Positions 6,169 to 34,550 of a DNA stretch of 64,000 nt are shown here, piece by piece. This DNA is from Polynucleobacter necessarius (GTDB taxonomy: Bacteria; Pseudomonadota; Gammaproteobacteria; Burkholderiales; Burkholderiaceae). The stretch spans positions 434,001 to 498,000 of the forward strand of contig LT606947.1 in the NCBI GenBank assembly GCA_900095165.1, in the 5' to 3' direction. Every line of letters starts with the position of its first letter. Position 1 is the first letter of the stretch. The translations under genes and the position numbers were made by a program. The notes under the pieces were generated by a model. That model ran no database searches. It saw only the letters and a list, made by a program, of their open reading frames with translations, and was not told the DNA's origin.

Positions 6169-6186
6169 TTGTCACAAAAGAGTCAC
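6169..6186 (+). promoter_or_regulatory. Pho box upstream of pstS
   Basis: TTGTCAC-AAAA-GAGTCAC fits the 7-4-7 PhoB operator (two CTGTCAT-like units 11 bp apart). It lies about 60 bases before the pstS ATG, the expected place in a phosphate-starvation promoter. Confidence 0.8.
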
Positions 6187-10799: not shown

Positions 10800-11513
10800 A
10801 TGACTCACCGAATATTGATTGTTGAAGATGAGCCTTCGATTGCTGAGCTAATTGCGATCAACCTAACCCATGCTGGATATGAGGTTGAAAAGGCCTTACA
10901 GACAGATATAGCGCTCAACATGATGCGCGATCAACTGCCTAGCTTGCTAATTTTGGACTGGATGTTGCCAGGTAAATCGGGCGTCCAATTTGCTAAGGAG
11001 TTGAGGGCTAACGAACGCATTCGATCCCTCCCGATTTTGATGTTGACTGCAAAGAGCGAAGAATCGGATAAGGTTTTGGGCTTGGATTCGGGGGCAGATG
11101 ACTATGTGACTAAACCATTCTCCCCTAAAGAATTGGTTGCCAGAGTGAAGGCGCTATTGCGTCGTCAAACCCCAATCGAGGATACGGGGCCACTGTCAGT
11201 TGGACCCTTAAGACTTGACCCAGTCTCACATCGTATTACAGCTGTTTGGCCAAATTTGGACCCTCAGCCTATTTCCCTCGGCCCAACAGAATACAGATTG
11301 CTGCAATTTATGATGGCCAATCCAGAGAGAGTTCATTCAAGGACTAACTTGCTGGATAAAGTTTGGGGCAATGAGGTTTATATAGAGGAGCGCACCGTGG
11401 ATGTTCATATTAAGCGCTTGCGAGCTGCTTTAGCGCCTTCTGACTGCGACCGCTATATTGAGACGGTCCGTGAGAGTGGTTATCGCATTACAAAGATGCC
11501 AACCCAGACCTAA
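10800..11513 (+). CDS. phoB: Phosphate regulon response regulator PhoB
   Basis: PhoB activates Pho-box promoters when phosphorylated by PhoR. The 237 residues hold a receiver domain with acidic pocket VEDEP, phosphoacceptor Asp53 (LLILDWMLPG) and Lys in VTKPFSP. A winged-helix DNA-binding domain follows (LGPTEYRLLQFMM, RTVDVHIKRLRAAL, YIETVRESGYRI). It starts 21 bases after phoU. Candidate targets visible in this window are pstS, ppx, the plcP/acyltransferase divergent region and ppk2. Confidence 0.96.
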   Translation: MTHRILIVEDEPSIAELIAINLTHAGYEVEKALQTDIALNMMRDQLPSLLILDWMLPGKSGVQFAKELRANERIRSLPILMLTAKSEESDKVLGLDSGADDYVTKPFSPKELVARVKALLRRQTPIEDTGPLSVGPLRLDPVSHRITAVWPNLDPQPISLGPTEYRLLQFMMANPERVHSRTNLLDKVWGNEVYIEERTVDVHIKRLRAALAPSDCDRYIETVRESGYRITKMPTQT

Positions 11514-11573: not shown

Positions 11574-12890
11574 ATGCTCTCTGTAATTACCCGTTTTGCG
11601 CTGCTCATTATTTTGGCATTTTTTTCTGGATTTATGGCTTTATCGTATTTTGGCCCATTGATTGGCATTGCAGCTGGAATCGCTGTTCTTGCTATCCCGC
11701 TTATATATTCGTATATCAATCTTGCTCGCCTACGTAAACATACATTAAAGAACACTCTGGAAAGCATGTCTTTGCCAAGCGGGTATTGGGAAGAGATTTT
11801 TTTTCGCATTCAAAGGTTGGTAAAAGGTTTAAAACAACAAATTCGATCTATTCAAAAACAGCGCAATCGTTTCATTGAAGCATTTCAGGCCTCGCCTAAC
11901 GGCATTCTGATGTTAGATGATCAAGATCAGATTGAGTGGTGCAATGCTATTGCTGAGCGATTTTTTGGACTTAACTTTAAGCGCGACGTCATGCAAAGGA
12001 TTAACTTCCTAATACGTCGACCTGAATTTATTCAGTACTTATATAAGCGTCAATTTGAAGAACCTCTTCTCATGGAGCGCATGGGTGCAAAGGCGAATTT
12101 GAGTCTAATGCTACAAGCTTTCCCTTTTGGCGACAAGAGACACCTTTTATTGGTGCAAGACATCACGGATTTGCAAAAAGCGGACGCAATGCGTCGCGAC
12201 TTTGTGGCCAATGTCTCTCATGAGATGCGTACGCCAATCACGGTATTAATGGGTTTTTTAGAGACGATGCAGTCATTGGATTTGGATGAGGCTCAGCAGC
12301 ATCAGTATTTTGGGTTGATGATGTCGCAGGCTCAAAGGATGAAAAGTCTAGTAGAGGACTTATTGACCTTGGCGAATCTTGAGGCGAATACTTTACCCGC
12401 CCCGATGCAGCTCATCTCAATCCCAACATTAATGGCATTGCTAAAAAATGATGCAGAGGCTCTATCCCAAGGGCGGCACGCATTTAACTTTGATATCTCA
12501 AGCTCTGACAATCTAATGGGTGAAGAGCGGGAAATTCTTTCTGCATTCAGTAACCTGGTTTCAAATGCGATTCGTTATACGTCTGATATTGGCTCGATAA
12601 GTGCTGACTGGCGAATCAATGCACAGGGTGAGGGGGAGTTCTCTGTAACTGATACAGGCCCAGGCATCGCTTCCGAGCATTTGTCACGTTTAACAGAGCG
12701 CTTTTATCGTGTGGATAGAAGTCGCTCTCGTGACACGGGTGGAACCGGCTTAGGGTTGGCGATTGTTAAGCACATTGCCAATCGACATCAAGCTCAACTG
12801 ATTATTGAAAGTACTCCTGGCATAGGAAGTACTTTTACACTACGCTTTCCTAAAGTAAGAATTGCGCATTTAGATAGCAAAGTGCATTAA
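11574..12890 (+). CDS. phoR: Phosphate regulon sensor kinase PhoR
   Basis: PhoR is the membrane histidine kinase that phosphorylates PhoB. The 438 residues comprise two N-terminal membrane segments (about 5-48), a linker, a PAS domain (FIEAFQASPNGILML onward, ~100-190) and the H-box FVANVSHEMRTPIT. The ATPase N, G1 and G2 boxes are SNLVSNAIRYT, VTDTGPGI and GGTGLGLAIVKH. All catalytic boxes are intact. It is separated from phoB by 60 bases. Its stop overlaps the end of a convergent pseudogene by three bases. Confidence 0.96.
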   Translation: MLSVITRFALLIILAFFSGFMALSYFGPLIGIAAGIAVLAIPLIYSYINLARLRKHTLKNTLESMSLPSGYWEEIFFRIQRLVKGLKQQIRSIQKQRNRFIEAFQASPNGILMLDDQDQIEWCNAIAERFFGLNFKRDVMQRINFLIRRPEFIQYLYKRQFEEPLLMERMGAKANLSLMLQAFPFGDKRHLLLVQDITDLQKADAMRRDFVANVSHEMRTPITVLMGFLETMQSLDLDEAQQHQYFGLMMSQAQRMKSLVEDLLTLANLEANTLPAPMQLISIPTLMALLKNDAEALSQGRHAFNFDISSSDNLMGEEREILSAFSNLVSNAIRYTSDIGSISADWRINAQGEGEFSVTDTGPGIASEHLSRLTERFYRVDRSRSRDTGGTGLGLAIVKHIANRHQAQLIIESTPGIGSTFTLRFPKVRIAHLDSKVH

Positions 12891-16092: not shown

Positions 16093-16104
16093 TTCTTGCT
16101 TGAT

Positions 16105-16611
16105 ATGAAAAACTCTAAAAATATTCTATTTCTTTGTTCTGGCAATTCTGCAAGATCGATTATGGCTGAGGCATTAGCAACAACACTCAGTCATGGCCAC
16201 TTTATTGGTTATTCTGCCGGGGCAAAGCCAGTCGGCGTCGTTCATCCAATGGCAATTGAGTTAATTAAAGTGATGGGCTACCCGCTAGAGATTTTGAGAA
16301 GCAAAAGTTGGGACGAATTTGGGCGAGAAGGTGCGCCCAAGATGGATTTTATTATTACCCTTTGTGACTCTGCGCTAGGGGAAGATTGCCCATATTGGCC
16401 GGGACACCCATCTACTACTCATTGGGGCTTTCCAGATCCTGCTGCAGTTAAAACCGGTGAAAAAGCAATGCTTAATGCTTTTAAGCAGATAGAAATGGGT
16501 TTGCGCAATCGAATTGAATTGCTGATGGACTTACCTATAGATAAGCTTGATCGACTCGAGATCAAGGACCGACTCCAAAGTATTCATCACCGCTTAAAGT
16601 TTGCAAAATAG
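16105..16611 (+). CDS. arsC: Arsenate reductase / low-molecular-weight phosphatase family
   Basis: The protein has the C-X5-R-S active-site loop CSGNSARS with Cys11, Asn14 and Arg17. The Asp general-acid region is in the GFPDPAAV segment. This is the arrangement of thioredoxin-type ArsC, related to low-molecular-weight tyrosine phosphatases. It reduces arsenate to arsenite in the cytoplasm. Length is 168 residues. ATG 16105 is preferred over the in-frame TTG at 16096. Location between phoBR and phoA makes sense, since arsenate enters through phosphate transporters. Substrate is inferred, and a phosphatase role is possible. Confidence 0.8.
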   Translation: MKNSKNILFLCSGNSARSIMAEALATTLSHGHFIGYSAGAKPVGVVHPMAIELIKVMGYPLEILRSKSWDEFGREGAPKMDFIITLCDSALGEDCPYWPGHPSTTHWGFPDPAAVKTGEKAMLNAFKQIEMGLRNRIELLMDLPIDKLDRLEIKDRLQSIHHRLKFAK

Positions 16612-16651
16612 AAAAATCCAATCAAAGCATTTCATATAATTCTTGCCCCTT

Positions 16652-18408
16652 ATGAACATTTTGAATTTATTTCGCTTAATTACCGTGTTAGCGCTGTCAC
16701 TACAGTTCAGTATGGCGAGTGCAGCCGCCTTATATCCTATTGATAAGGCGGCAATTTTGTTGGGCTCGCAATTTGATATCAAAATTGAGTTCGATGGCAC
16801 ATATCTTCCCGAAGAATTTGTAGTTCAGTTGAGTGGGGCTCTAATTTCTAAACTTGTTAGGCAGCAGCCCACTTTCATTCTCAATGAATCAGGTAAGGGA
16901 AGCTCCCTAATTTATCGAGACGTTCAATTAAATCAGACTGGAAAATACGTCCTAATGGCAAAATCTGCCCAACAAACCTTGCAGGTTTCCTGGGATGTGT
17001 ATGCTAGCGGACCGAGGAAGGTCAAGAATGTCATTCTCTTTATTGGCGATGGCATGACTATTGCAAACCGAACTTCAGCGCGTGTATTTTCAAAAGGAAT
17101 TTCTGAGAGGAGGTATCGGGGTAAGCTGTCATTTGATGATATGCCCAACACTGCATTGATTGGTACATCCGGATTTGATTCTCTGATTACAGATTCAGCA
17201 AACTCCATGAGTGCTTATACAACTGGTCATAAAACGGCTGTAAATGCAATTGGCGTTTATGTTTCAAGGGCTTCAGATAATTTATCGCATCCTAAGGTGG
17301 AGACTATCGCGGAGTTAATTAAGCGCAAAACGAAGATGTCGGTTAGCATAGTCTCGGATGCTGAACTTCAAGATGCTACCCCTGGTGCGATGGTAGCTCA
17401 TACCCGAAGACGTGCCGATAAAGCCTATATTGCTGATCAACTTCTTGTGCAAGTGGAGCGGAGGTAATTCTCGGTGGTGGTTCAGCTTATTTTTACCCTC
17501 AGTCAAGCAAGGGCTCAAAACGCAAGGATGAGAAAAATCTTGTTGAACAATTTAAAGCTAATGGTTATGAGATTAGCTTTGATAAAGATGAATTAATGAG
17601 GGTTGGAAATTCTGCAAATACTAAAAAGCTCTTTGGTGTTTTTCATCCTGACAATATGGATGGATCGCTTGATCGATTTTTTCTTAAGAAAAATACTGTT
17701 GAACAATACCCAAATCAGCCTGACTTAACGGATATGACGAGATCCGAAATTAATGTGTTATCAAAAAATCCAAATGGCTTTTTCTTGATGGTTGAGGCTG
17801 CGTTGATCGATAAGTTTAACCACCCTTTGGACTGGGAGCGCGCTGCTTTTGACGTCATCATGTTAAGTAAAGCGGTGCAAATTGCTAAAGATTTTGCAAG
17901 GACTCATCCCGATACATTAATTATTGTGACCCCAGATCACACGCATAGTGGATCTATTAGCGGAGTTGTTCATGATGCTAAGCCCGGACATTTTCGGGAA
18001 AAGGTTGGCGTGTATGCCGAGGCGGGTTATCCAAACTACCCTAAGGCTAATGTGGAAGGTTATCCAAGCCAGATTGATGTATCAAAGCGTTTGGCATTCT
18101 TTTACGGAAATTATCATGACCACTATGAGACTCTGCACCCTAAGCTTGATAGTACGTTTAAGCCTGCAGTTAAAGATGAGACGGGTAAGTATGTCGCTAA
18201 TCCTGGGTACATTCAGATGCAAGAGGATGCAATTCATATGCCGGGGAATTTACCTTCAAATCAGGCGCAAGGTGTGCATACTGCAGATGATGCTGTGTTA
18301 AATGCCATGGGCCCTGGCTCAGAAAAATTTCGTGGCTTTATGGATAACACCGAAGTGTTTATGGTTATGGTTGAAGCTCTAGGGCTCGGTCGAAATAAGT
18401 CGAAATGA
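16652..18408 (+). pseudogene. phoA: Alkaline phosphatase, frameshifted near the middle
   Basis: ATG 16652 starts a signal peptide ending around MASAA. The first frame contains VKNVILFIGDGM (metal-binding Asp) and ITDSANSMSAYTTGHKT (phosphorylated Ser after Asp). It breaks near 17453, where QLLVQ is followed by nonsense and TAA 17465. The next frame resumes GAEVILGGGSAYFYPQSS and runs to TGA 18408 with FFLMVEAALIDKFNHPLD and IIVTPDHTHSGS. One missing base (for example restoring Gln-Ser-Gly-Ala) rejoins a ~585-residue periplasmic phosphomonoesterase. No other break was seen, so the loss looks recent. It lies beside phoBR. Confidence 0.9.
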
Positions 18409-19202: not shown

Positions 19203-19415
19203 GTGAATACTTTGTCAAAAAACCGGCACTCTATCATTACGCGCCCAAATTGCCGGGGCCATGAAATTCTTGAAATCCCTAGTGGATATTCTCAGCATCT
19301 TTATCGCTGCCCGTCCTGCAGTGTCATCCTGAAGCCAAAGTCTGGTGATTGCTGCATTTTCTGTAGTTTTGGCAATCTTGATTGCTCAAGCTCGGAACAA
19401 AACTTAGCGGCTTAG
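19203..19415 (+). CDS. GDCCVxC-type small cysteine protein (variant)
   Basis: A 70-residue frame starting GTG 19203 ends with LKPKSGDCCIFCSFGNLDC, the signature of the GDCCVxC (seleno)protein family. Members usually carry two pairs of cysteines (CPxC near the N-terminus, then CxxC, then GDCCVxC). The CxxC (RCPSCSV) and GDCC parts are present. The N-terminal pair reads RPNCRGH instead of CPxCGH, so the first Cys appears substituted by Arg. The usual Met-Pro step reads Ile-Pro. Function is unknown; a metal or redox role is the usual guess. Weak start and substitutions suggest it may be decaying. Confidence 0.6.
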   Translation: MNTLSKNRHSIITRPNCRGHEILEIPSGYSQHLYRCPSCSVILKPKSGDCCIFCSFGNLDCSSSEQNLAA

Positions 19416-19440: not shown

Positions 19441-19469
19441 GTTTCATGAATGTGTCACGTTATTTTCAT
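19441..19469 (+). promoter_or_regulatory. Tandem Pho box (three units) upstream of ppx
   Basis: GTTTCAT (19441), GTGTCAC (19452) and TTTTCAT (19463) start exactly 11 bp apart, separated by 4-base spacers. This is the PhoB-box repeat pattern. It ends about 45 bases before the ppx start. Confidence 0.7.
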
Positions 19470-19514
19470 AAAATAGACATATTCAAATAAATTTGCTTAG
19501 TTATTGGGAATATT

Positions 19515-21080
19515 TTGACCCTTATTAAAGACTTCTCTGGAATGCAGCCCTCTGACTTGATTGCGGCAGTTGATTTAGGTTCCAATAGCTTTCGCATGTT
19601 GGTGGCCCAAGTTGTTAAGACGCCATCTGGTACTCAGCTTCGCCCAATTGACACTCTCCGTGAATCCGTCCGCCTTGCGGCTGGATTGACCGATAATAAG
19701 CTGTTGGGCAATGATGCTTATCAGCGAGGGATCTCGGCTATTCATCGCTTTGGGGAGCGCATCAGAGGGTTTGATCCGTCTAAGGTGCGCGCAGTTACCA
19801 CCAATACTTTGCGAGTAGCTAAAAATGCTCCTCATTTTGTTCGGGATGCGGAGGAGGCCCTTGGTTTTCCTATCGAGGTTATTGCCGGGGTGGAGGAGGC
19901 TCGTCTAATTTATATTGGAGCTGCCCATGAGGTTTCAGCAGTCCAAGGAAATCGCTTGGTGGTTGATATTGGCGGTGGTTCAACTGAGTTGATCATTGGC
20001 AAGGGCTATGAACCAAGGTTGATGGAGAGTCTTTACATTGGCTGCGTTTCCCACAGCTTGCGATTTTTCCCCAAGGGTACTATTGATGCCCACGCTTTTA
20101 AGGAGGCGGAGTTAGCAGCGCGCCGTGAGATTCAGGTAATTTCAGGTGCTTATTTAAAAAGCGGCTGGAAGCAGGTCATTGGCTCATCTGGTACAGCACG
20201 CGCCTTAGCCGATTTAATTGCTGAAAATAATTTTAATGGCCACGTAGACGAAGGTCTAACTATGGGGCGGGTTAATGGCGCAAGTGGATTGATTACGCGT
20301 GATGGCCTCAGGGCCATGAAAAAACACCTACTTAAATATGAGCATATCAGCCAAGTTGAGTTACTTGGTCTTAAGAATGATCGCCGTGCCGTTTGGCCTG
20401 GTGGTTTGGCGATTATGATTGCCGTCTTTGATGAGTTTGGTATTGAAAGCATGGAGGTGACTGATGCCGCTTTGCGCGTAGGCGTCCTGTACGACTTATT
20501 GGGGCGCTCACAACATGACGATATGCGCTTTGTGACGGTAGAGCAATTTATGCAACGCTATGCTGTAGATCGGGATCAGGCAAAGCGGGTAGGGCACCAT
20601 GCTGCAGAATTTTTAGCGCAACTACCTAAACCTGATTATGAAAGTAGATCCGATAACATTGCCCTACTTCAATGGGCTGCCAACCTACATGAAATTGGCT
20701 TATCGATTTCTCATAATGGTTATCACAAGCATTCTGCTTACATTGCTGGAAATGCTGATATGCCAGGGTTTTCAAAGAATGATCAAGCTAGGCTGGCTGC
20801 GCTATTGATAGGGCACACTGGTAAATTAAGCAAGTTAGCCAATAACCCTAGTTTTAAAGATTGGCGCATGCTTTTTTGCTTGCGTCTGGCTCAAGCCCTG
20901 TGCCGAGGCAGAAGTGATGCCGATTTGCCTAGGGTGAAGGTATCCGAGCATGATGGATCCTACCTAGTCAGTCTCTCGAAAGACTGGGCAAGGGGGCATC
21001 CATTAACTGAATTTAGTTTGCTAAAGGAAGCGGCCGAATGGGATCGTATCGGCCGGCCTTACAAGGTAAGCTTGAAGTAA
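19515..21080 (+). CDS. ppx: Exopolyphosphatase Ppx/GppA family
   Basis: Ppx removes terminal phosphates from polyphosphate; some relatives act on pppGpp. The 521 residues carry the ASKHA fold: phosphate-1 motif AAVDLGSNSFRMLVA, catalytic-region EEARLIYIGA, phosphate-2 motif VVDIGGGSTELIIG, and a C-terminal helical HD-like region (NLHEIGLSISHNGYHKHSAY). The start is TTG 19515; ATG 19542 (MQPSDLIAAVDLG) is also possible and closer to family starts. A three-unit Pho box upstream suggests PhoB control. It is convergent with the olsB pseudogene. Confidence 0.93.
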   Translation: MTLIKDFSGMQPSDLIAAVDLGSNSFRMLVAQVVKTPSGTQLRPIDTLRESVRLAAGLTDNKLLGNDAYQRGISAIHRFGERIRGFDPSKVRAVTTNTLRVAKNAPHFVRDAEEALGFPIEVIAGVEEARLIYIGAAHEVSAVQGNRLVVDIGGGSTELIIGKGYEPRLMESLYIGCVSHSLRFFPKGTIDAHAFKEAELAARREIQVISGAYLKSGWKQVIGSSGTARALADLIAENNFNGHVDEGLTMGRVNGASGLITRDGLRAMKKHLLKYEHISQVELLGLKNDRRAVWPGGLAIMIAVFDEFGIESMEVTDAALRVGVLYDLLGRSQHDDMRFVTVEQFMQRYAVDRDQAKRVGHHAAEFLAQLPKPDYESRSDNIALLQWAANLHEIGLSISHNGYHKHSAYIAGNADMPGFSKNDQARLAALLIGHTGKLSKLANNPSFKDWRMLFCLRLAQALCRGRSDADLPRVKVSEHDGSYLVSLSKDWARGHPLTEFSLLKEAAEWDRIGRPYKVSLK

Positions 21081-21116: not shown

Positions 21117-22056
21117 TTACAAACCTAAGAAATGTTTTGCGTAACGTGGATTAATTTCTGAAAGACGCAGCATTGTTAAAACATCTGCCGTATTGAAATC
21201 TGGATCCCAAGCGGGAGCGCTGCAAATCTTGGCGCCCAATTTGAGGTAGCCATTAATCAAAGGTGGTGATTCAACATCTAAGCCACCGTTGAGGCTTTCG
21301 AGTGGCCAGGGGTAGACGAGGGAATGCGTGATTCTCTACCGGCGCCATTTGTTCGTTGCTGAGGGAGTTATAGAGACTTGCTGCAAAGTGACCACCGTCA
21401 GCCATTGGAATGCTTGCGCAACCCAACATGATTTCATAATCATGCTTTTGCATATATTGAGCTAAACCACTCCACAGAGCCATAATGACAGCTCCAGAGC
21501 GGTAATCAGCATGAACGCAAGATCTGCCCAATTCAACCATCTTGGGTCGTAAGTGGTTTAGGCGCGATAAGTCAAATTCCGAATCTGAATACAGGCGACC
21601 AATCTCTAGAGCTTTATGTGGCGGAAGAACTCGATAGGTTCCTACCACCTTAAGCGTCTCTTGATCGCGAATCAAAAGATGGTCACAGTAGGCATCAAAT
21701 TCATCAACATCAAGACCTTCAGCATTTGCAGGTAGGTTTGCACCAATTTCATCTGCAAACACCTTAAAGCGCAAGCGCTGCGCTTCCTTAATTTCATTTG
21801 GATTGCTTGCCCAGGTGATCTGAAAAGCAGGGCGCTTTGGTTTGGTAAGTGCCTTATCAGTTTGTATTGGCTCAATCGCCGTAAATTCAGCACGTGCACG
21901 CAACGCAAATTTTTTCCAGAAGAGTTTTTTGGCAATTTTCTTGGAGAATAACTTCTTGATTGCTTCAGTCTTATGTTTTTTTGATTTTCTTGGCTTACCT
22001 TCAAAGCGTGAGTTGAAGATATCAAATGCAGCTAATGGGTTTGGAATGTCAGACAT
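21117..22056 (-). pseudogene. olsB: OlsB-like N-acyltransferase (ornithine-lipid type), frameshifted C-terminus
   Basis: The GNAT-type domain spans QITWASNPNEIKEAQRLRFK through LEIGRLYSDSEFDLS to GAVIMALWSGLAQYM, as in OlsB, which N-acylates ornithine in phosphorus-free ornithine-lipid synthesis. From ATG 22056 the frame fails near 21305 (ends RKPQRWLRC). The adjacent frame gives PWPLESLNGGLDVESPPLI, then GYLKLGAKICSAPAWDPDFN and RYAKHFLGL to TAA 21117, the canonical OlsB/hemolysin-like end. A basic N-terminal extension of ~80 residues precedes the domain. It is the last gene of the minus-strand plcP-agt-dgkA-olsB set. Substrate assignment is by family resemblance. Confidence 0.75.
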
Positions 22057-22101
22057 AATTTTCCTTAATCTATTTCTTTAAATCGTAAGTGCTCGGCATG
22101 A

Positions 22102-22503
22102 CTAATTGATGACAAGTGGCAGGCAAATCGTTGCCCAGAAAGCAGTTGCAATGAGAAGGGCAAGCATTACCGGCAGCTGACCCAAAATCTTTAGCTCTTT
22201 TGGAGAGATCGTGATGATCAAATGAGATTCGATCAATTGCCGCTTCTACGCTCGAATTTAGGAGTTCAACTACTAAAACCATAATCAATGAAGCAATCAG
22301 AACGCATTTTTCAAGAGGGCTAATTGGCAAAAAAATGCAATAAGAGAGAGTAGCGAGAGTAAAGTGAGCTCTTGTCTAAATGCGCTCTCTTCATTGAACG
22401 CGTACACAAATCCACACCAAGAATTTTTTGCTGCATACCAGGCTCTAGCGAACCCCTTATTTCCTTTGTGCGGATTTTGATTAATGTTGTAAGGTGTAGT
22501 CAA
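22102..22503 (-). pseudogene. dgkA: Diacylglycerol kinase DgkA, two frameshifts
   Basis: DgkA phosphorylates diacylglycerol in the inner membrane. Segment one (TTG 22503) gives GFARAWYAAKNSWCGFVYAF and NEESAFRQEL, a DgkA hallmark. A T7 run (plus-strand A run near 22330) breaks the frame. Segment two gives PISPLEKCVLIASLIMVLVV, then ELLNSSVEAAIDR and LSKRAKDFGSAA, the catalytic motif. A second break near 22175 (an extra base in GCTGCCGG) is followed by VMLALLIATAFWATICLPL and TAG 22102. Joined, this is a normal ~132-residue DgkA with three membrane helices. It starts 9 bases after the agt stop. Confidence 0.85.
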
Positions 22504-22511
22504 AATAAACC

Positions 22512-23540
22512 CTAAGCCAAGGCTGTAATGTGAACTTCTGTTGACGGTACAGGTTTGAGGTGATTTGCAAATTGCTCGGATGCCGCGCGCCAGGAGAACT
22601 TCTCGGCATGCGCTCTAGCTACCTCACGAGAGATTTTTAGGGCCTGTAGGCAAGCCTCCCGAAGATCTTCATGCATTGCGCCAGCAGGTGAATTTCCCAG
22701 AACATCAATTGGTCCGGTTACTGGGTACGCGGCTACTGGCGTTCCGCAGGCCATGGCTTCGAGTAAAACTAAGCCAAAGATATCAGTCTTGCTTGGAAAT
22801 ACAAATACATCGGCTGCCGCATAAACCTTAGCCAATTCATGTTGTTGCAAGACGCCAAGATAATTGATGTCAGGATACTTTTCCTTAATGCTAGCCATAG
22901 CTGGACCATCATCAACAACCCACTTCGAGCCTGGTAGGTCTATCTCTAGAAAAGCGTTGGTATTCTTTTCAACTGCAACTCGACCAACGTAGAGAAAAAT
23001 TGGGTGAGCAGTATTAAGCGCTTTAGAGTCTTGCATTTTGAAGATATCCAAATCTACGCCACGCGACCACAACACAACATTTGATAGACCATATTTTTCT
23101 AGGTCATCTTTCACCACAATCGTTGGTGCCATTACTGCCATGGATGGACCGTGGAACCAGCGAATAAATGCATACGTAATGCCAAGCGGAATGCCTGTTC
23201 GGGCTTTAACGTATTCTGGAAAGCGGGTGTGATATGCGGTTGAGAATGGAAGCTTATTCTTGACTGCATAAGCGCGTGCCGATAAACCTAAAGGCCCCTC
23301 GGTTGCAATATGCATTGCATCTGGAGCAAATTCTTTAATTCGGCGTGCCACTTCTTTGCCGGGAAATAGGGATAGCGCAATATCAGGATAGGTAGGGCAA
23401 TGAATTGATTTAAATCCATTGGGAGTGATCATTTCAACTTCGTGACCTATTGCAATTAATTCTGCACGAGTTTGTTTTAGGGTTCGCACTACTCCATTGA
23501 CTTGTGGATCACATGCGTCAGTGATGATCATAATTTTCAT
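22512..23540 (-). CDS. agt: GT4 glycosyltransferase, Agt-like (diacylglycerol glycosylation)
   Basis: This 342-residue GT-B enzyme opens MKIMIITDACDPQVNGVVRT and has LYVGRVAVEKN and the nucleotide-sugar E-x7-E region DIFGLVLLEAMACGTPVAAYP. Homologues next to plcP (called Agt) move a sugar onto diacylglycerol to make glycolipids under phosphate starvation. The ATG overlaps the plcP stop (ATGA), implying coupling. The frame is intact. However, the usual V-GDGP turn reads VVDDGP (Gly to Asp), and TDIFG and EKNTN differ from the common TDTFG and EKNIG/E, so activity is uncertain. Lipid substrate is inferred from context. Confidence 0.75.
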   Translation of the reverse strand: MKIMIITDACDPQVNGVVRTLKQTRAELIAIGHEVEMITPNGFKSIHCPTYPDIALSLFPGKEVARRIKEFAPDAMHIATEGPLGLSARAYAVKNKLPFSTAYHTRFPEYVKARTGIPLGITYAFIRWFHGPSMAVMAPTIVVKDDLEKYGLSNVVLWSRGVDLDIFKMQDSKALNTAHPIFLYVGRVAVEKNTNAFLEIDLPGSKWVVDDGPAMASIKEKYPDINYLGVLQQHELAKVYAAADVFVFPSKTDIFGLVLLEAMACGTPVAAYPVTGPIDVLGNSPAGAMHEDLREACLQALKISREVARAHAEKFSWRAASEQFANHLKPVPSTEVHITALA

Positions 23541-24346
23541 AATGCGGCCTCTTTAATGAGAGAATCAACAACGGGTTGAAGGTTAATTTCAGGAGTTACG
23601 ACTGGGTCACCTTTGATATGGGTCCAGTAAATAATTTTGAGTTCGCCGGTTGTGGTTTCAACAAGGGCAGAAAGGCTCTCAACCCAATCTCCATCATTGC
23701 AGTAGAGAAGCCAGTCGATCTCACGAATTTCAGCTTTATGGATATGGCCACATACAACGCCATCGCAATCCCTTAAGCGTGCTTCTCTGGCCATGATGTG
23801 CTCAAAGTCGGCTATGTAACTTACTGCATTTTTAACTTGATGTTTCAGATATTGGGAGAGGGACCAATATTGAAGACCCATCTTGACTCGCAACATGTTG
23901 AAATAACGGTTGATATATAAAATGAAGGAATAAAGAGAGTCGCCCACATAAGCTAGCCACTTTGCGTACTGCATGACACCATCAAATAGGTCGCCATGAG
24001 TAACCCAGAGTTTTCGACAATCTAATGTTGTGTGAATGACCTCTTCTTGAGCTTTAATATCGCCAAAAGACATTCCGAAGTATTGGCGTGCGGCCTCGTC
24101 ATGATTTCCGGGTATGTAAATGACCTCGGCACCTTTTCCGGCTTTGCGTAATAGCTTTTGCACTACGTCATTGTGAGCTTGAGGTCAGTAAAATGACTGT
24201 TTAAGGCGCCAGCCGTCGATGATATCGCTAACGAGATAAAATTTATCTGCCTCATTGTGCTTTAGAAAATCGAGGAGGTAGTTTGCCTGACACCCTGATG
24301 TTCCTAGGTGTACATCTGAAATCCAAATAGCTCTGTAATGCATCAT
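23537..24346 (-). pseudogene. plcP: PlcP-like metallophosphoesterase/phospholipase C with in-frame TGA
   Basis: From ATG 24346 (a second ATG follows) the frame reads HYRAIWISDVHLGTSGCQAN to DGWRLKQSFY, meets TGA at 24185-24187, and continues PQAHNDVVQKLLRKAGKG to TGA 23537. Homologues have FYWPQ-HNDVVQKLL, so a conserved Trp codon became TGA. Calcineurin-type metal motifs are SDVHLG, GNHDE, THGDLFD and CGHIHKAE. The GD motif reads LVSDIIDGW, a Gly to Ser change. PlcP hydrolyses phospholipids to diacylglycerol for glycolipid synthesis under phosphate limitation. Databases often label this family UDP-2,3-diacylglucosamine hydrolase. It lies directly downstream of a Pho-box array. Confidence 0.8.
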
Positions 24347-24370
24347 GAGTAAACATTAAGCCTACTCATT

Positions 24371-24410
24371 ATGTATACCTCATGACACTTTTAAGTCAGT
24401 TTGATGACTT
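24371..24410 (-). promoter_or_regulatory. Four-unit Pho-box array in divergent promoter region
   Basis: Read on the minus strand, AAGTCAT (24410-24404), CTGACTT (24399-24393), GTGTCAT (24388-24382) and TATACAT (24377-24371) start every 11 bp with 4-base spacers. The best pair is CTGACTT-AAAA-GTGTCAT. The array ends 24 bases before plcP and lies 21 bases before the divergent acyltransferase gene. Confidence 0.65.
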
Positions 24411-24431
24411 GATTTATATTGTTGTTTCTAT

Positions 24432-25172
24432 ATGAATAAATTTACGAAACTTTGGTATTGGTTCCAAATAGGAGCGCACGTTATTGGTGGGGCTTGCATA
24501 CTTTCTTTTATTTTTCCATTTCTAACGAGGCCCCGTAAGGATCAAAAGATTCAGACATGGTCAAAGCGCTTATTAAAAATATTTAATATTCACTTGGCCG
24601 TCCAAGACGCCCACTTTTTAATCGACTCCTCCTATTTAATGACATCAAACCATATTTCATGGATAGATATTTATGTCATTAATGCCTTTAATCCCATTAG
24701 GTTTGTGGCTAAGTCAGAAGTGGAGGGGTGGCCAGTATTTGGCTGGATGGCTAAACAGCTGGGTACTGTATTTATTCGTCGAGACAGCTCACGTCATGCA
24801 AGGCAAGTGGTTGGTCAAATGGCGCAGGTTCTAAAAACCGAATCCATTTGTATTTTTCCTGAAGGCACCTCTACTACTGGGGAGTGTGTTTTGCCATTTA
24901 GGCCTAATTTATTTGAGGCGGCAATTGCTTCTGGGGGCCCAGTTTTTCCACTGGCTATCCAATACATCTCTAGGTCAACTGGAGATAGAAGTGAAGCCCA
25001 AGCCTTTGTTGGCGATATGGGTTTGTTGGAGTCCATGGCCAATATCCTAAGTACACGTGATTTGCAGGTTAATTTGACAGTTTTGTCACCCTACCGACAT
25101 GGAATAGAACCATCTTTGGATAGGAAGCAATTAGCAGCACATGCCCAGGAGCTCATTGCAAGGGCCATTTAA
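24432..25172 (+). CDS. 1-acyl-glycerol/lyso-lipid acyltransferase (PlsC/OlsA-type)
   Basis: The 246-residue protein has an N-terminal membrane anchor (about 14-32) and the acyltransferase motifs NHISWIDIYVIN (H-x4-D), GTVFIRRD, FPEGTSTTGE and FPLAIQY. The family moves acyl chains onto lysophosphatidate (PlsC) or lyso-ornithine lipid (OlsA). Its position opposite the plcP-agt-dgkA-olsB set, sharing a Pho-box region, favours OlsA-type O-acylation paired with the OlsB homologue. Sequence alone cannot decide. The frame is intact. Confidence 0.8.
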   Translation: MNKFTKLWYWFQIGAHVIGGACILSFIFPFLTRPRKDQKIQTWSKRLLKIFNIHLAVQDAHFLIDSSYLMTSNHISWIDIYVINAFNPIRFVAKSEVEGWPVFGWMAKQLGTVFIRRDSSRHARQVVGQMAQVLKTESICIFPEGTSTTGECVLPFRPNLFEAAIASGGPVFPLAIQYISRSTGDRSEAQAFVGDMGLLESMANILSTRDLQVNLTVLSPYRHGIEPSLDRKQLAAHAQELIARAI

Positions 25173-25178
25173 CTGCAT

Positions 25179-25207
25179 TTGTAATAAAAGTGTCATATCC
25201 TTGAGAT
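25179..25207 (+). promoter_or_regulatory. Candidate Pho box upstream of ppk2
   Basis: TTGTAAT (25179), GTGTCAT (25190) and TTGAGAT (25201) are spaced 11 bp apart with 4-base spacers (first spacer AAAA). The first two match the PhoB consensus well and the third is weak. The site ends 28 bases before the ppk2 ATG. Confidence 0.55.
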
Positions 25208-25235: not shown

Positions 25236-26141
25236 ATGACATCAAAACACAAAGAAATGGCTGAATGGTATCAGCGTGCACAAGAGGAAATCTTGGATAG
25301 CATGGACGAAGAGCTTGAAATGGAGCTCGATGATGACCGCCTTTCTCAGGATGGTGGCAGTGGCTCCATCATTCCCCGAAACGTTTACTTTAAGGAATTA
25401 TTTCATCTTCAGGGTGAATTAGTAAAGCTCCAGGATTGGGTCGTTGAAAACAAACTCAAGGTGGCCGTTCTATTTGAAGGTCGTGATTCTGCGGTTAAAT
25501 GTGGGGCGATCAAACGAATTACTCAACGACTGAATCCCCGCGTTTGTAAAGTAGTCGCACTGACCGCACCTAGCGAACGTGAAAAGATCCAGTGGTATTT
25601 TCAGCGCTATGCATCAAACTTGCCTGCAGGTGGCGAAATCGTTTTATTTGACCGTAGCTGGTACAACCGAGCGGGTGTTGAGAAAGTCATGGGATTTTGT
25701 ACTGATGAAGAGTGCGAGGAATTTTTACGCACCGTTCCCGAGTTTGAGCGCATGATTATTCGCTCTGGAATCATATTAATTAAGTACTGGTTCTCAATTT
25801 CAGATGATGAGCAGTACAACCGTTTTATGATGCGCATCCATGACCAGTTGAAGCAGTGGAAGTTAAGCCCCATGGATCTTGATGCACGTCGTCACTGGGA
25901 AGCCTATACGAAGGCAAAAGAGACTATGTTGGAGCGGACCAATATCCCGGAAGCACCATGGTGGGTTGTTGCTGCAAACGATAAAAAGAAAGCTCGCTTG
26001 AATTGCATCTCTCATTTGTTGGATCAGATCCCCTATAAAGAGATCGATCATCCAGAGATTACTCTGCCTGCGCGCGTCCATAATCCAGATTACCTTAGGG
26101 GTCTAGTTCCCAAGGAAATGTACGTCCCAGAGATTTACTGA
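25236..26141 (+). CDS. ppk2: Polyphosphate kinase 2 with altered Walker A loop
   Basis: PPK2 transfers phosphate between polyphosphate and nucleotides. The 301 residues show the family core: VLFEGRDSAVKCGAIKRITQ, QWYFQRYASNLPAGGE, LFDRSWYNRAGVEKVMGFC (Walker B) and QWKLSPMDLDAR. An acidic N-terminal extension (~60 residues) is also present. The P-loop should read GRDAAGKGGAIK. Here the two glycines flanking Lys are Val and Cys (GCG GTT AAA TGT). Both changes fit G to T substitutions and should cripple nucleotide binding. The frame is open, so an automatic annotation would miss this. A candidate Pho box precedes it; stop is TGA. Confidence 0.85.
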   Translation: MTSKHKEMAEWYQRAQEEILDSMDEELEMELDDDRLSQDGGSGSIIPRNVYFKELFHLQGELVKLQDWVVENKLKVAVLFEGRDSAVKCGAIKRITQRLNPRVCKVVALTAPSEREKIQWYFQRYASNLPAGGEIVLFDRSWYNRAGVEKVMGFCTDEECEEFLRTVPEFERMIIRSGIILIKYWFSISDDEQYNRFMMRIHDQLKQWKLSPMDLDARRHWEAYTKAKETMLERTNIPEAPWWVVAANDKKKARLNCISHLLDQIPYKEIDHPEITLPARVHNPDYLRGLVPKEMYVPEIY

Positions 26142-33814: not shown

Positions 33815-34550
33815 TCAGCTTAAAACAATCTTAGGGTCAATTTTTAAAATTTTCCGATCTTTATCCGGATAATTGACTCGAGATAATAAATCAGCAATGA
33901 GATTGAGGTGTGCGAGTTTTTTATCATTGGCGTTAACGACAGTCCATGGCGCAGCTTCTGAACTAGTCTTTTTGAGCATGTCGTTTCTAGCCTCAGAGTA
34001 AGCATTCCACATCTTCTGCGCCTTCTGATCAATCGGGCTGATCTTCCACTGTTTCAGGGGATCTTTTTCTCGATCTTTAAGTCGTTTTGCCTGCTCTTCC
34101 TTGGAGATATCTAGATAGTACTTGATTATTTGAATGTTGGATTTTATGAGCAGGGATTCAAAATCATTTACTGTTGCCATAAATAATTTGTATTGCTCAT
34201 CAGTGCAAAATCCCATTACTCTTTTTGCGCCAGCGCGGTTGTACCAACTTCGATTAAAGAGGACGGTTTCACCGGCTGATGGGAGCTTGCGCAACATACC
34301 TCTGAAAGTACCACTCATGCTCTTCGAGAGAGGAGGGGGCGGCCATGGCAACTACTTTCGTATCTCTGGGGCTTAAATTTTCAGCAACACTTTTAATGCT
34401 GCCATCTTTGCCTGCAGCATCACGCCCTTCAAAAATCACTAAGAGACGTTTGCCTTTTTGAATATTGTGACGCTGTAGTTTGACTAATTCAGTTTGAAGA
34501 AGTCGTAAGTCTGCCTCGTAAATATCTTCAGAAATCAACGATTTACTCAC
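33815..34550 (-). pseudogene. ppk2: Second polyphosphate kinase 2, frameshifted
   Basis: From ATG 34550 (MSKSLISEDIYEADLRLLQT) the frame contains an intact P-loop FEGRDAAGKDGSIK and EWYFQRYVAQ. It is then lost near 34295-34300 (ends APISR). The adjacent frame gives LPSAGETVLFNRSWYNRAG and QWKISPIDQKAQ to TAA 33815. Removing one base in GCGCAAGCTCCC restores YVA-x-LPSAGE. The ~245-residue protein would be a second PPK2 class from the one at 25236. Here the frame is broken but the P-loop is good, the reverse of the first copy. Confidence 0.85.

Follow-up and report, generated by a model that had tools for sequence, protein, structure and literature searches.

Four short repeats lie between a plcP-type metallophosphoesterase gene and the divergent gene of an OlsA-like acyltransferase in the 64,000-nucleotide stretch of Polynucleobacter necessarius DNA analyzed here (the window). 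An initial annotation had read them as Pho boxes that could serve both genes. Do these repeats constitute a PhoB operator, towards which of the two genes would it act, and does it still matter in a strain whose plcP copy is interrupted?

Repeat array and gene context

The gap between plcP (start at 24346) and the acyltransferase gene (start at 24432) extends from 24347 to 24431, or 85 bp. It harbors four 7-base units on the minus strand (24371-24410) that run from 24410 down to 24371 in exact 11-base steps. These are unit 1, AAGTCAT (24404-24410), unit 2, CTGACTT (24393-24399), recognized from the array itself, the genus alignment and the array score, unit 3, GTGTCAT (24382-24388), and unit 4, TATACAT (24371-24377), which adjoins plcP. 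The spacers from unit 1 to unit 4 are caaa, aaaa and gagg on the minus strand. The array displays the features of a Pho box, with direct CTGTCAT-like units of 7 bp, 4-bp A/T-rich spacers and an 11-bp period, the exception being the last spacer, gagg. The units and coordinates given by the initial annotation are confirmed by the sequence. Its statement that the array covers most of the gap is overstated, because the array occupies 40 of the 85 bp, which is half.

The array is followed, on the minus strand, by the plcP-type gene (23537-24346), an agt-type GT4 glycosyltransferase gene (22512-23540) and a dgkA-like gene (22070-22503). A metallophosphoesterase gene followed by an agt-type glycosyltransferase gene is the arrangement of a lipid-remodeling operon. 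The name plcP rests on this context because no NCBIfam PlcP model matched the product; the nearest model was LpxH-like, at 45 bits for a cut-off of 134. The plcP copy of the window is not intact, as one in-frame stop after 53 codons divides it into 53 + 208 codons, and two intact relatives encode proteins of 268 and 269 residues (L094 is open, with 269 residues). The agt gene is open, of full length, and aligns end to end with its relatives. Two frameshifts, identified by eye in the three frames, interrupt the dgkA-like gene, which encodes 133-134 residues and is open in all five relatives examined.

Comparison with a PhoB matrix

A scan with the plain E. coli-type consensus CTGTCATNNNNCTGTCAY, with at most three mismatches, gave 9 matches in the window against 8.6 expected. 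This count is at chance level and does not single out the array. The consensus scan was thus dropped as a detector and a matrix trained on pstS promoters, of the kind suggested in the initial annotation, was used instead. The PhoB matrix has 18 columns and was built from the pstS promoters of 29 relatives. The pstS loci were the best 30 (the window's own and those of the 29 relatives) among 51 genomes with a pstS match. The window's own pstS was excluded from the matrix, and the array was never part of the training set. Because the pstS sites were picked with a CTGTCAT consensus, the matrix retains some dependence on that consensus. One training site, from locus L056, was found to be out of register; it was among the 29 sites used first, and later scoring of arrays and regions used 28 sites. 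Its removal changed the scores of the three array dyads from 9.2, 13.5 and 5.0 bits to 9.4, 13.4 and 5.4 bits.

With the 29-site matrix, the dyad ranking of the window is headed by the site before its own pstS (6169-6186, plus strand, 24.3 bits, outside the training set), followed by dyads at 25179 (21.2 bits), 22098 (20.7 bits), 19212 (15.9 bits), 19463 (14.5 bits, before ppx) and 24382 (13.5 bits). The last of these, formed by units 2 and 3 (24382-24399), is the best dyad of the array and the sixth of the window. The dyad at 24393 scores 9.2 bits and the one at 24371, which includes unit 4, is the weakest with 5.0 bits. Six dyads of at least 13 bits are found in the window, compared with a mean of 0.5 and a maximum of 3 in shuffled windows. 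No single array dyad is exceptional, since shuffled windows gave a top dyad of 12.4 bits on average and of up to 20.9 bits.

The four-unit array as a whole scores well above background. Its summed three-dyad score of 28.2 ranks second among phased arrays on both strands of the 64 kb, after an array at 19441-19480 (31.9), and the third scores only 1.4. A score of 28.2 was reached by none of 200 dinucleotide shuffles of the window (maximum 15.1) and by none of 5,000 shuffles of the gap (maximum 7.7).

Conservation of the array

A plcP match was found in 35 of the 37 genomes of the same genus. One locus (L027) was left out of the alignment as its contig ends at plcP, and another (L031) was missed by the alignment motif and entered as L131 among four additional genus loci. 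The region from -90 to the ATG of plcP aligns without gaps in 28 loci, including the window. The GTCA of unit 1, invariant in all 28, several bases of units 2 to 4, and the block GGCTTAAT before the ATG stand out in this alignment, and the strongest period of its information content is 11-11.5 bp. By eye, the four additional loci carry four units at an equal distance from the ATG, in a more degenerate form. Genome G023 has kept all four units, yet its plcP and acyltransferase genes are split into pieces. Genome G017 has kept units 1 to 3 and lost unit 4. Four units at a fixed distance from plcP are thus present in 33 of 34 genus loci (28 aligned, four by eye and G023, with G017 the exception), so that the array is conserved among relatives, as the initial annotation had proposed to check. 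Neither of the two refuting outcomes named there, a score equal to that of shuffled DNA or a lack of conservation, was observed. In a second collection, four units were seen by eye at that distance in all seven nearest loci (L142-L148), of which L148 is poor.

The array of the window is about average for the genus. Of its 28 unit positions, 5 differ from the genus consensus, where the 28 loci range from 1 to 9, and its matrix score is the tenth lowest of the 28.

Among named loci, those closest to the plcP product mostly carry the label Polynucleobacter, the best at 87%, in a set from which the window genome's own records were possibly omitted. Outside the genus, the 230 bp upstream of the plcP homologue were searched for a GTCAY-N6-GTCAY pair, allowing one mismatch at most, with single-base shuffles as background. 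Of 80 named loci, 79 were scored, L193 being too short. Of the 73 loci that lie outside the genus, 37 have the pair before the plcP homologue; over all 79 loci, its frequency is 1.6% in the shuffles and 1.3% in the coding controls. No such pair was found upstream of the plcP homologue in 29 of the 32 loci L149-L180, which belong to Cupriavidus, Burkholderia, Paraburkholderia, Ralstonia, Trinickia and Caballeronia. This one-pair test misses degenerate arrays, since L143 failed it and yet carries four units by eye. That the repeats arose by chance in A+T-rich spacer DNA, a reading with which the chance-level consensus scan would agree, is vanishingly improbable given the window and gap shuffles, and is ruled out by the conservation in the genus.

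PhoB and PhoR

The genome of the window encodes an intact PhoB and an intact PhoR. The phoB product (10800-11513, plus strand) matches TIGR02154 with 315.8 bits, above the cut-off of 296.2, and the phoR product (11574-12890, plus strand) matches TIGR02966 with 408 bits, above the cut-off of 334.2. Both remain below the cut-offs of the PRK10161 (PhoB) and PRK11006 (PhoR) models. Direct repeats with a period near 10-11 bp are bound by many members of the OmpR family, and the array could in principle belong to another regulator of this type. Such an assignment is highly improbable, as PhoB is the only Trans_reg_C match in the genome (E 0.001) and the matrix that detects the array derives from pstS promoters.

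Promoter geometry and proposed activation of plcP

A -10-like CTTAAT is localized at 24355-24360 on the minus strand, in the conserved GGCTTAAT block, where no indel occurs in 28 loci. A stretch of 10 bp separates it from unit 4, and one of 8 nt from the ATG of plcP. These 8 nt are found in all 28 aligned loci; the letters of the -10 vary in a few. The pstS promoters analyzed here have the same spacing, with a dyad followed by 10 bp and TATCGT. By eye, no -35 is visible before plcP, so PhoB would occupy this position, and unit 4 is placed by sequence where a -35-replacing unit would be, about 10 bp before the -10. In E. coli pstS, PhoB takes the place of the -35, and the double Pho box likewise comprises four 7-mer units at 11 bp, the last about 10 bp before the -10. 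The E. coli pstS transcript has a leader, whereas the plcP start leaves room for almost none.

A Shine-Dalgarno core precedes only one of the 28 plcP starts and one of the 28 acyltransferase starts, compared with 29 of the 30 pstS starts. Because this core is nearly absent, both divergent genes look leaderless, and plcP and the acyltransferase gene are likely to form a leaderless pair.

The matrix score, the conservation, the geometry and the lone PhoB all argue for the PhoB operator named in the initial annotation. From these sequence data, we estimate at about 90% the probability that the array is a two-box (four-unit) operator through which PhoB would activate plcP-agt-dgkA. When phosphate runs short, dimers of phosphorylated PhoB would line up in head-to-tail order along the 11-bp units. 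Unit 4, 10 bp before CTTAAT, would replace the -35, where sigma-70 would be held by PhoB. The transcript would begin at the plcP ATG or next to it and would be leaderless. PlcP would then strip the head groups from phospholipids, and Agt would add sugars to the freed diacylglycerol.

The divergent acyltransferase arm

The OlsA-like acyltransferase gene (24432-25172, plus strand) is open; its product matches Pfam Acyltransferase, and the NCBIfam OlsA model with 127 bits, below the cut-off of 300. A -10-like TATATT lies at 24415-24420 on the plus strand, 11 nt before its ATG, and is found 8-11 nt before the start in 21 of the 28 loci. The initial annotation had suggested that the array could switch both arms, which would mean that it induces or represses the acyltransferase gene together with plcP. 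This gene is the divergent neighbor of plcP in all 28 loci, and a role in ornithine lipid synthesis, for which its best NCBIfam match is the below-cut-off OlsA model, would suit phosphate starvation. In 9 of the 28 loci, including the window, TATATT is 4 bp from the array, so that bound PhoB would touch RNA polymerase. The distance is however 13-25 bp in 12 other loci (4, 13, 18, 20 and 23-25 bp were seen among the 21), whereas there is no indel towards plcP. In the matrix scan, no dyad of the window is oriented towards the acyltransferase gene, the best scoring -7.2 bits, and ppk2, downstream of this gene, has its own dyad. Neither a fixed geometry nor an oriented site towards both promoters was thus observed. 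Given the variable spacing and the low score of the facing dyad, we consider control of both arms by the one array doubtful; the array is fixed towards plcP, and its distance from the acyltransferase promoter differs from one species to another.

Decay of the operon

As plcP and dgkA are both broken in the window, the operator could be a relic that no longer matters in this strain. Genome G017 would offer a parallel, having kept units 1 to 3 with unit 4 lost, plcP truncated and no phoB match (best hit 2.7e-8, 27% over the receiver part). The genes phoB, phoR, pstS, agt and the acyltransferase gene are all open in the window, as are the olsB-like gene, ppk2 and ppx, and the 5 mismatches of the array lie within the range of the genus. 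These observations make the relic unlikely, and the PhoB operator probably still works in the window strain, though its first gene is interrupted. The initial annotation had also judged the operator to be in a better state of preservation than its genes. This applies to plcP, with its stop, and to dgkA, with its frameshifts, but not to the open agt and acyltransferase genes, the array itself being average.

In G017, pstS and the acyltransferase gene are broken as well. Three PhoB units persist around positions 2000-2030 of its locus (L092) in this genome without a phoB match, and an operator outliving its regulator is most simply explained by a lag in decay. The unit pattern that matched exactly in the window, G023 and G017 was written after these sequences had been viewed, and these exact matches are therefore a description, not a test.

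When L098 served as the third sequence of a relative-rate check, the window evolved faster in ppx, the olsB-like gene, plcP, the acyltransferase gene and ppk2, and equally in agt. With L101 as third sequence, the differences shrink and are reversed for the acyltransferase gene. These mixed results suggest relaxed selection in the window genome. The decaying Polynucleobacter genomes are perhaps those of ciliate symbionts.

A wider picture combines these elements, and we regard it as rather improbable. One array would serve two leaderless divergent promoters and both halves of a phosphorus-free membrane (PlcP-Agt glycolipids and an OlsA-type ornithine lipid), with the -10, start and ATG of plcP fused at a fixed length, and in decaying genomes the operator would outlive PhoB and the genes.

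Other putative Pho sites in the window

The top-ranking array, at 19441-19480 on the plus strand, also comprises four units at 11 bp. It precedes ppx/gppA (19515-21080, plus strand, Pfam Ppx-GppA) and, by eye, is kept in 17 of 20 relatives. The dyad TTGTAATAAAAGTGTCAT at 25179-25196 (plus strand) precedes ppk2 (25236-26141, plus strand), whose product matches TIGR03707 with 357 bits, above the cut-off of 301.8; 11 of 20 relative regions likewise have a dyad at a distance of 35-42 nt from ppk2, on its upstream side. The third dyad of the window, TTGTCATCAATTAGTCAT (22098-22115, minus strand), is an exact match to the dyad pattern and precedes an open gene for an OlsB-like N-acyltransferase (21271-22056, minus strand; Pfam Acetyltransf_5; best NCBIfam match OlsB, 150 bits, below the cut-off of 350). 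The fourth dyad (19212-19229, plus strand) lies inside a small cysteine-rich ORF (19203-19415). A short ORF at 33815-34351 on the minus strand appears PPK2-like by eye and looks truncated.

Among the 20 relative regions, dyads of at least 13 bits were found before plcP in 15, ppx in 13, ppk2 in 11 and the olsB-like gene in only 3, as well as before a gene like that at 16643-17467 in 6 and one like that at 16096-16611 in 1. A further 17 dyads of at least 13 bits, in these regions and in L092 and L093, have no gene assignment. Allowing one mismatch at most, the dyad pattern matches 10 sites in the whole genome of the window, the array at 24371-24410 not being among them. The reversed-pattern control also has 10, so that single dyads show no enrichment over the genome as a whole and the enrichment is local only. 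Four of the 10 matches (pstS, olsB-like, ppx and ppk2), including both exact matches of the genome, fall in the window, which represents 3.4% of the genome.

Relation to known systems and significance

Putative Pho boxes on plcP clusters have been reported in marine bacteria (Sebastian et al., PMC4796936), and in Pseudomonas, at PA3219-PA3218 of P. aeruginosa (PMC8528852). The names Burkholderia, Betaproteobacteria and Polynucleobacter do not occur in the main text of PMC4796936. As far as the relevant parts of these two papers describe them, the plcP-agt operons share with the present locus a Pho box before plcP/agt and a PhoB in the genome. Compared with the same descriptions, the Polynucleobacter locus is distinguished by four phased units, an invariant distance to the ATG, a divergent OlsA-like neighbor, an apparently leaderless start and an interrupted plcP. 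According to the part of PMC3972451 that concerns it, olsB of Agrobacterium tumefaciens also carries a Pho box, so that the two systems share such a box ahead of a gene for an ornithine-lipid N-acyltransferase; in the window, the OlsB-like gene lies downstream of the plcP operon and is preceded by a separate dyad. Our literature search returned no title on this Polynucleobacter operator among the matches listed. The array is very probably a new example of a well-known type of switch, in a strain where the operon is partly broken.

The finding would join, in a genus of freshwater bacteria, the genes for membrane lipid remodeling and those for polyphosphate into one phosphate regulon, in which dyads or arrays precede pstS, ppx, the olsB-like gene, plcP-agt and ppk2 over a span of about 19 kb. 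The decaying copies in the window, G023 and G017 would provide a series in which the breakdown of this regulon can be followed.
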